From Gemmatimonadaceae bacterium (GTDB taxonomy: Bacteria; Gemmatimonadota; Gemmatimonadetes; Gemmatimonadales; Gemmatimonadaceae), in assembly GCA_035533015.1 (NCBI GenBank), contig DATLUQ010000011.1, positions 1 to 64,000 on the forward strand: a DNA stretch of 64,000 nucleotides, in the 5' to 3' direction. This document shows, piece after piece, positions 12,817-15,216 of this stretch (the first letter of the stretch is position 1; every line of letters begins with the position of its first letter). The notes beneath the pieces are model-generated. The model was not told where the DNA came from. It saw only the letters and a list, made by a program, of their open reading frames with translations, and did no database searches. The translations under genes and the position numbers were made by a program.

Positions 12817-12945
12817 GTAGGAGAGTACGAGGGTAGGAGAGTAGGTTGGTGAGACGGCGGGACGGCCTGACCGTCTCGCCGTCTTCCTTATTACTACCCT
12901 CCTGCCCTCCTACCCTTCTACCGTCCTACTCTCCTACTCTCTCCC
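12817..12945. repeat. Purine-rich GTAGGA repeat with nested hairpins upstream of gltX
   Basis: The left arm (12817-12845) repeats GTAGGAGAGTA-type units. The right arm (12895-12943) carries the complement as CCTACTCTCC-type units. Between them is a 13-bp hairpin with one G-T wobble (12853-12865 with 12871-12883, loop CCTGA). The whole can fold as a nested stem. A related sequence lies after prs at 36611-36713. It ends 1 base before the gltX ATG, so it must lie in the gltX leader or promoter. Confidence 0.7.
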
Positions 12946-12946
12946 T

Positions 12947-14386
12947 ATGACCGCCCCCCGCCTCCGCTTCGCCCCTAGCCCCACCGGATATCTCCACGTG
13001 GGCGGCGCGCGCACGGCGCTGTTCAACTGGCTCTACGCCAAGAAGTACGGCGGCCAGTTCCTGCTGCGCATCGAAGACACCGATAAGGCGCGCAGCACCG
13101 AAGCGAGCACGCGCGCGATCTTCGAAGGACTGGAGTGGCTGGGGCTCACGTGGGACGAAGAGGTCGTGTACCAGGGCGCCAACCTGCCACGCCACCAATC
13201 CGACGCCCGCCGGCTGCTCGACGCGGGCGCAGCCTACCGCTGCTTCTGCACCCGCGAGGAACTCGACGCGCGGCGCGCCGAGGCCGAGGCGCGCAAGGAG
13301 TCGTTCAAGTACGACCGGCGGTGCGATGCGCTGCCCCGCGAAGAGGTGGACCGCCGGGTGTCGGCGGGCATGCCATTTGTGATCCGCTTTCGCGTGCCCG
13401 ACGGCGCGACGAGTTGGACCGACCTGGTGCACGACACGATCAGCTTCCCCAACAAGGACATCGAGGATTTCGTGATCCTCCGATCCGACGGGACGCCGAT
13501 CTACAACCTGGCGGTGGTGTCCGACGACATCGCCATGCGGATCACGGTGGTGATGCGCGGCGACGACCACATCTCGAACACGCCCAAACAGATTCTGCTG
13601 TACGCCGCGCTGGGCGCCGAGCTGCCGACGTTCGCGCACCTGCCCATGATCCACGGATTGGACGGCAAGAAGTTGAGCAAGCGGCACGGCGCCACGGCCG
13701 TGGCCGACTACCAGCACATGGGGATCCTCCCCCAAGCGATGCTCAACTTTCTGGCCCTCCTCGGCTGGTCGCCGGGCCGCGACATCGAGGTGATGACGGT
13801 ACCGCAGATGATCGAGTTGTTCAGCGTGGACGGGTTGCTCAAGAAGGCGTCTGTGTTCGACACGGCCAAGCTCGAATGGATGAACGGACAGCATCTGAGC
13901 CTGCTCGCGAGCGCCGAGATCGAGCCGCGGGTGACGCCGGCCCTCGTCAAGGCAGGGCTGGCCACGGCGAGCGAGCTGCGGGAGCGGCACGAGTGGTACC
14001 TGTCGCTACTCGACCAGCTCAAAGTGCGCTCACGTACGATCGACGACATCGTGCGGCAGGCCGCGCCCTTCCTCCAGGACGAGATCACCTACGACGCGGC
14101 AGCCGAGGCCAAGCAGTGGAGCGACCGGCCCGCCGCGGCCGAACTGCTGCACGCGACCCGCGACGCGCTGGCCGGTGTGGCCGAGTGGGAGGCCGCGCCG
14201 ATGGAACTGGCGCTGCGAGGGCTGGCCGACGCCAGAGGCCTGAGCGGCGGTAAGGTATTCCAGCCGCTGCGCGTGGCACTCACCGGCCTCGGCGTGAGCC
14301 CCGGCATTTTCGAGGTGCTCGTGCTGCTCGGTCGCGAGCGATCGCTGGCGCGCATCGACGCGGCAATCCATCATCTCAGCGCGTGA
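12947..14386 (+). CDS. gltX: Glutamate--tRNA ligase
   Basis: Charges tRNA-Glu with glutamate, or both tRNA-Glu and tRNA-Gln in bacteria using the transamidation route. Class I synthetase signatures are clear. The HIGH-like motif is in FAPSPTGYLHVGGARTALFN (about residues 8-27), RIEDTD follows, and the KMSKS-like loop is KKLSKRHG (about 243-250). At 479 aa it has the usual bacterial length, with the C-terminal anticodon-binding helical domain. It starts at ATG 12947 directly after the purine-rich repeat. The stop at 14384-14386 is followed by a hairpin at 14426. Confidence 0.97.
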   Translation: MTAPRLRFAPSPTGYLHVGGARTALFNWLYAKKYGGQFLLRIEDTDKARSTEASTRAIFEGLEWLGLTWDEEVVYQGANLPRHQSDARRLLDAGAAYRCFCTREELDARRAEAEARKESFKYDRRCDALPREEVDRRVSAGMPFVIRFRVPDGATSWTDLVHDTISFPNKDIEDFVILRSDGTPIYNLAVVSDDIAMRITVVMRGDDHISNTPKQILLYAALGAELPTFAHLPMIHGLDGKKLSKRHGATAVADYQHMGILPQAMLNFLALLGWSPGRDIEVMTVPQMIELFSVDGLLKKASVFDTAKLEWMNGQHLSLLASAEIEPRVTPALVKAGLATASELRERHEWYLSLLDQLKVRSRTIDDIVRQAAPFLQDEITYDAAAEAKQWSDRPAAAELLHATRDALAGVAEWEAAPMELALRGLADARGLSGGKVFQPLRVALTGLGVSPGIFEVLVLLGRERSLARIDAAIHHLSA

Positions 14387-14425: not shown

Positions 14426-14450
14426 CCGTCGGGCTAATCCCGACGGCTTT
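14426..14450 (+). terminator. Hairpin after gltX
   Basis: A perfect 8-bp stem CCGTCGGG/CCCGACGG with loop CTAAT, followed by CTTT. It lies 40 bases after the gltX stop and before the proposed promoter of the LexA-like gene, so it probably separates the two transcripts. Confidence 0.55.
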
Positions 14451-14466
14451 GCCGGGGAAACATATG

Positions 14467-14496
14467 TTGACCCTCCGCCGCAAAAAGCCGTACATT
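14467..14496 (+). promoter_or_regulatory. Sigma70-like promoter of the LexA-like gene
   Basis: TTGACC (14467-14472), 18-base spacer, TACATT (14491-14496). The boxes match the consensus at 5/6 and 4/6. Transcription would begin near 14503, leaving a leader of about 65 bases before ATG 14569. This supports that ATG over the upstream GTG at 14383. Confidence 0.5.
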
Positions 14497-14568: not shown

Positions 14569-15216
14569 ATGACGGAGCCACTTACCCAGTTGGAACGGCG
14601 CGTCTATCACTATTTGATAGACTTCCTCGCCGAACATACTTACCAGCCGAGCATTCGCGAGATCGCGAAGAAGTTCCGCATCAAGTCCACCAAAACGGTG
14701 TCGGACCTGCTGCACTCGCTGGAGAGCAAGGGGTACATCCAGCGCGACGAATCGCGCTCGCGCGGCGTGCACATTTTCGGATTCGCGGCGGCCGGCGCCA
14801 CGCAGCCCGTGCCCTGCCTGCCGATGTCGGCGGCGGGCGAAGCCGGCGCGCTGCCCCATACCAAGCGCTACATCACGATGGACCGCCGGTTCCTGCCGGG
14901 CGACGACGTGGTGTTCCTGCGCGCCGCGGACGACGCGGTGAGCAGCCGCGGCATCCTGGCCAACGACTATGTGATGGTGTCACCGTCGGCGCGAGCCAAG
15001 GACGGCGACATCGTGGCGGCGCGCGTGGGCGGTCTGACGACGGTACGCACGCTCACCCACCGCGGGGCGACGATCGTGCTCGAAGGCGCGGCGACGACGC
15101 CGCCCATCGAAGTGGGCCCGACCGACGACTTCGCGATTCTGGGCGTGGTCTGCGGGGTGTTCCGCCCGTTCGTGGAGAACGAACCCGCGCCGCCGGAACC
15201 GCTGCCGGCCGACTGA
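14569..15216 (+). CDS. LexA-like repressor lacking the autocleavage Ser/Lys dyad (215 aa)
   Basis: LexA architecture. An N-terminal winged HTH spans residues 1-70 (LTQLERRVYHYLIDFL, then PSIREIAKKF and TVSDLLHSLESKGYIQR), and an S24-type C-terminal domain spans about 80-200. The scissile pair is present (A89-G90 in SAAGEAG). An ungapped alignment from FLR to GIL puts A123 at the nucleophilic Ser (AADDAVSSRGIL versus SGMSMKDIGIM in E. coli). R160 lies at the catalytic Lys (TTVRTL versus VTVKRL). The protein should bind DNA and dimerise but not cleave itself. An open frame reaches GTG 14383, but the extra 62 residues are Arg-rich and unlike LexA, so I start at ATG 14569. Confidence 0.85.
   Translation: MTEPLTQLERRVYHYLIDFLAEHTYQPSIREIAKKFRIKSTKTVSDLLHSLESKGYIQRDESRSRGVHIFGFAAAGATQPVPCLPMSAAGEAGALPHTKRYITMDRRFLPGDDVVFLRAADDAVSSRGILANDYVMVSPSARAKDGDIVAARVGGLTTVRTLTHRGATIVLEGAATTPPIEVGPTDDFAILGVVCGVFRPFVENEPAPPEPLPAD

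Follow-up and report, generated by a model that had tools for sequence, protein, structure and literature searches.

The 64,000-nucleotide stretch of DNA from a soil bacterium analysed here (the window) carries on its forward strand the gene lexA2 (14569..15216), which encodes a 215-residue LexA-fold protein without a Ser-Lys dyad, as identified from its open reading frame, profile matches, and an AF2 model searched with Foldseek. The conserved upstream neighbor of lexA2 is gltX (12947..14386, forward strand), which by sequence encodes glutamyl-tRNA synthetase. A GC-rich hairpin, CCGTCGGGCTAATCCCGACGG, is located between the two genes (14426..14446, forward strand); its dyad is conserved in congeners, and it is probably the gltX terminator. 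The sigma-70-like promoter of lexA2 (TTGACC, 18 nt, TACATT; 14467..14496, forward strand) is a single match against 0.2 expected. Its -35 element is overlapped by a candidate self-operator, AAACATATGTTG, an AACA-N2-TGTT dyad (14458..14469, forward strand) that holds the sole copy of AAACANNTGTTG in the source genome. Signals upstream of gltX that were considered as operators belong to a tRNA gene. An 8-bp direct repeat, GTAGGAnn, forms dispersed intergenic arrays, often as facing pairs, at 12936 (reverse strand) and 36620 (forward strand) of the window and at loci L190, L195, L205, L212, L215, L218, L224, and L228. One array is positioned just upstream of gltX. The arrays resemble a small repetitive or MITE-like element.

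LexA2 is a member of the LexA family by sequence and fold. Both the winged helix-turn-helix (HTH) and the S24 domain exceed curated cut-offs, with 57.8 bits for Pfam LexA_DNA_bind (cut-off 23.7) and 50.3 bits for Pfam Peptidase_S24 (cut-off 23.3), and NCBIfam TIGR00498 lexA is matched at 125.8 bits (cut-off 110.95). The AF2 model has a mean pLDDT of 87.6, and its top Foldseek matches are LexA structures, including LexA S119A (1jhh). The winged HTH DNA-binding domain spans residues 3–66 (14575..14766, forward strand). Residues Q26, P27, S28, R30, I38, S40, T41, V44, K54, and R63–G66 are invariant in a 50-sequence alignment of LexA2s with intact and broken dyads, and in the recognition helix, S40, T41, K42, and V44 hardly vary in either group. 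Because part of the 148-sequence LexA2 set described below was gathered by a pattern on the HTH, the invariance was rechecked on a set drawn without this pattern.

The active site was located both by HMM-based alignment against solved LexA structures and with MAFFT, and the two placements agree. Residues A89-G90 (14833..14838) correspond to A84-G85 of E. coli LexA, A123 (14935..14937) to the nucleophilic Ser119, and R160 (15046..15048) to the catalytic Lys156, all on the forward strand. The Ser119/Lys156 dyad of self-cleaving S24 repressors is thus replaced. The first-pass annotation had described a protein with both autocleavage residues substituted that retains the LexA winged HTH, the S24 domain, and A89-G90, and this description is borne out by the alignments, the relatives, the curated profile matches, and the fold model. 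The Ala-Gly remnant of the scissile pair is present in the source species and gone in its congeners, which have AT or other residues in its place. S125 and S126, considered as substitute nucleophiles, align to K121 and D122, are non-homologous to Ser119, and have no lysine partner; in intact LexA2s their positions are mostly occupied by Ile/Val and Gly. The C-terminal domain contains only two lysines, K99 and K144, the latter of which aligns to R140, not K156, and the alignment revealed no suitably placed replacement Ser or Lys elsewhere in LexA2. An assembly error is ruled out, as the same A/R pair occurs in two congeners and in a further close relative (a MAG, locus L230). The alignments support the conclusion that LexA2 cannot use the standard Ser-Lys mechanism.

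The same genome encodes a second LexA (LexA1) on contig C14, which is intact, with VAAG, GNSM, and TVKK all kept. Across the phylum, 50 distinct LexA1 sequences were scored, and each of them retains the Ala-Gly pair, Ser, and Lys. LexA1 and LexA2 are approximately 32% identical, with recognition helices reading SLATV in the LexA1 of this genome and STKTV in LexA2, and the tree separates LexA1 as a clade apart with 100/100 support. Most genomes of the source family f1 have a lexA2 homologue, and the two proteins mostly occur together there; homologues are also present in families f4, f5, f6, and f9. The gene is generally absent from families f2, f3, and f7, and from genera g4 and g21 of f1. One f1 genus lacking lexA2 includes the single-contig genome G019 (4,636,964 bases), which we take to be Gemmatimonas aurantiaca T-27; the lack of the gene there could be the reason that the paralogue has been overlooked. 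All 80 loci kept from a scan of named genomes for lexA2 belong to Gemmatimonadota. The gltX gene is located directly upstream of lexA2 in all f1 loci examined and in most loci elsewhere, and lexA2 is therefore one orthologous locus. LexA2 is an old paralogue encoded beside gltX across several Gemmatimonadota families. In family f5 (L344, L347, L348), a tadA-like deaminase gene follows close behind the broken lexA2, in the order gltX-lexA2-tadA. The match of the lexA2 homologue at G170:C9:1936-2580 (L158) runs across an in-frame TGA.

A survey of the Gemmatimonadota homologues for Ser and Lys, suggested in the first-pass annotation, showed both residues in 62 of 148 distinct LexA2s, the loss of both in 77, Ser only in seven, and Lys only in two. 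The Ala-Gly pair is kept by 59 of the 62 LexA2s with a complete dyad versus four of the other 86, and is thus gone from 82 of the 86 broken proteins. The tree requires about 10 changes between intact and broken states, at least eight of which are forced by well-supported branches; the count is the same with the active-site columns removed. Since all LexA1 proteins and E. coli LexA are intact, the direction of change was probably loss of the dyad. Intact and broken LexA2s even occur within one genus, in g13 (L161 S/K, L037 A/R), g6 (L011 S/K, L016 A/R), and g7 (L018 S/K, L019 T/R). The intact class also includes the LexA2 of Roseisolibacter sp. H3M3-2 (L255), and in genome G080 the dyad reads S/Q.

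The DNA-binding domain of LexA2 is under stronger constraint than the former protease domain in the source genus. The dN/dS values, which are approximate as they were calculated by the Nei-Gojobori method from three species of this genus, are 0.016–0.057 for the winged HTH of LexA2, 0.229–0.362 for its C-terminal domain, and 0.364–0.475 for the linker, the least constrained part of the protein. The corresponding values for LexA1 are 0.044–0.076, 0.032–0.065, and 0.048–0.171. Across pairs of intact and broken LexA2s, the dN/dS of the winged HTH is 0.005–0.086. The conserved winged HTH and relaxed C-terminal domain and linker point to a working DNA-binding protein in which cleavage is no longer selected. 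This domain-wise constraint fits the SOS-independent repressor that had been proposed for the locus, released from SOS control.

Of 50 lexA1 loci, 49 have the direct repeat TTCGG-N6-TTCGG in the promoter, often in two copies, and none of 101 lexA2 loci has it upstream. The source genome contains 18 exact sites, compared with three for the reversed control. Boxes of LexA1 are located at G000:C14:29190-29231 and at 16 other sites (loci L171-L188), and the genes downstream, named by reading their translations, include lexA1 (two boxes), uvrB, ruvB, imuA, gyrB, and genes for a sigma factor and a radical-SAM protein. In most genomes examined, the box at the recA promoter deviates at one position (TTCGT-N6-TTCGG), whether LexA2 is present or absent and whatever its state. 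Because the boxes are found at lexA1 and at core SOS genes, including recA in its variant form, and are absent at lexA2, the operator pattern indicates that the SOS response runs through LexA1, and it argues against LexA2 as the SOS master regulator. It had been suggested that, if the genome held no second intact LexA, its DNA-damage response must be wired differently; the search for such a protein found LexA1 on contig C14, and its boxes at the core SOS genes leave a rewired response unsupported. Judged by its dyad and its promoter, LexA2 is not a self-cleaving SOS repressor. Control of the mutasome by LexA2, as in Pseudomonas, is rejected for the source genome because imuA has a LexA1 box. 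Counts of Y-family polymerases have no obvious relation to the state of the LexA2 dyad.

The sequence AAACANNTGTTG occurs as a single copy per genome in G000, G024, G210, and G025, each time at lexA2. The AACA-N2-TGTT dyad is positioned at the lexA2 -35 element in the source genus and three other lineages, in both intact and broken members and with varying spacer letters. Among dyads in 144 non-redundant lexA2 upstream regions it shows the highest enrichment, with 11 occurrences against 0.19 expected, uncorrected for kinship. Different dyads, GTACG-N4-CGTAC and AGAAA-N4-TTTCT, are found at the lexA2 promoter in other clades and are rare in their genomes. AGAAA-N4-TTTCT is located at the broken lexA2 promoter of family f5 and has just one or two copies in several f5 genomes. 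A wider regulon of GTACG-N4-CGTAC in genus g3 was rejected, as the second site examined (L381) is inside a thymidine kinase gene. These dyads are leads for lexA2 autoregulation, not proof of it; the restriction of the candidate self-operator to some lineages and the different dyads of other clades fit badly with the near-invariance of the recognition helix. No palindrome or direct repeat is common to all lexA2 promoters. A de novo dyad search of approximately 860 kb (about 28%) of the source genome gave no clear LexA2 box, and recovered the LexA1 box, the dispersed octamer repeat, and Rex-like sites. Among the intergenic palindromes, CTTGTGAA-N4-TTCACAAG or near-variants at L193 (~5816) and L201 (~6810) resemble sites of the Rex redox repressor.

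We consider it likely that LexA2 is an old second LexA of Gemmatimonadota that, in the source genus, is a non-self-cleaving winged-helix repressor uncoupled from RecA and SOS. The protein, presumably dimeric, would have remained a winged-helix repressor after losing self-cleavage. It may repress a small set of targets, with its own promoter perhaps the main one, and RecA would not release it; its activity could be set by its level, by a ligand or modification, or by ordinary proteolysis. More tentatively, we speculate that on at least eight occasions the damage switch of a second LexA circuit gave way to a repressor that is blind to cleavage but retains its DNA-binding surface. Its pseudo-protease domain would probably receive a different input, and its control might extend to hardly anything other than lexA2 itself.

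It is possible that LexA2 binds DNA without repressing, acting in activation or as a partner of LexA1. In the specific form in which LexA2 dampens the SOS response by heterodimerising with LexA1 or competing for its boxes, such a partnership could build on the shared LexA fold, a C-terminal domain of the type that dimerises in LexA, and the co-occurrence of both proteins in most f1 genomes; however, it is unlikely, given the different recognition helices, the approximately 32% identity of the two proteins, and recA boxes that look similar whether or not a genome has LexA2. Decay of lexA2, in which catalysis was lost because the protein is being eliminated, would account for the absence of the gene from families f2, f3, and f7 and from two genera (g4, g21) of the source family, and for the relaxed C-terminal domain. 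Nevertheless, purifying selection on the winged HTH is at least as strong as in LexA1, the frame is open in three congeners and almost all relatives, and the sigma-70-like promoter is retained, which makes decay quite improbable. The first-pass annotation had also proposed that the retained Ala-Gly pair could be cut in trans, and LexA2 would still be damage-switched if LexA1 or another S24 protease cleaved it at A89-G90. The pair is indeed present in the source species, with an intact LexA1 in the same cell, but congeners with the same A/R pair lack it, as do nearly all broken LexA2s, and no part of the protein is less constrained than the linker (dN/dS 0.36–0.48). Maintained trans-cleavage is therefore highly improbable.

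LexA is the textbook repressor defined by self-cleavage, and annotation as LexA does not imply SOS control. The many independent losses of the dyad in one orthologous lineage, in some cases with intact relatives in the same genus, represent a natural replicate experiment on how a switch turns into a constitutive or differently sensed repressor. No study of LexA in Gemmatimonadota came up in our literature search, and TTCGG-N6-TTCGG provides a usable SOS motif for this phylum.

The best sequence and fold matches to LexA2 are the LexA proteins of Thermotoga maritima (3k2z) and E. coli (1jhf, 1jhh). Unlike LexA2, the native proteins have an active dyad; the S119A substitution in 1jhh is engineered. 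Genomes of Pseudomonas putida and Xanthomonas encode two LexAs with different operators, of which LexA2 is cleavable and linked to imuA-imuB-dnaE2, whereas imuA of the source genome is under a LexA1 box. Leptospira interrogans serovar Copenhageni also has a second LexA, which has its own binding motif, binds its own promoter, is depleted after UV, and is thought to have been horizontally acquired; unlike the source genome's LexA2, it keeps both Ser and Lys (PMC3789691). The LexA of Synechocystis sp. PCC 6803 has neither the Ala-Gly site nor the dyad serine and represses non-SOS genes; its cleavage was not seen, and phosphorylation has been proposed as its control (PMC4759255, PMC7567884). As a LexA fold without the dyad serine, it is the nearest precedent for Gemmatimonadota LexA2. 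In Synechocystis, however, the alterations are in the very LexA that was studied, with no SOS role seen, whereas in Gemmatimonadota LexA1 is intact and a second, orthologous lineage has lost the dyad repeatedly.
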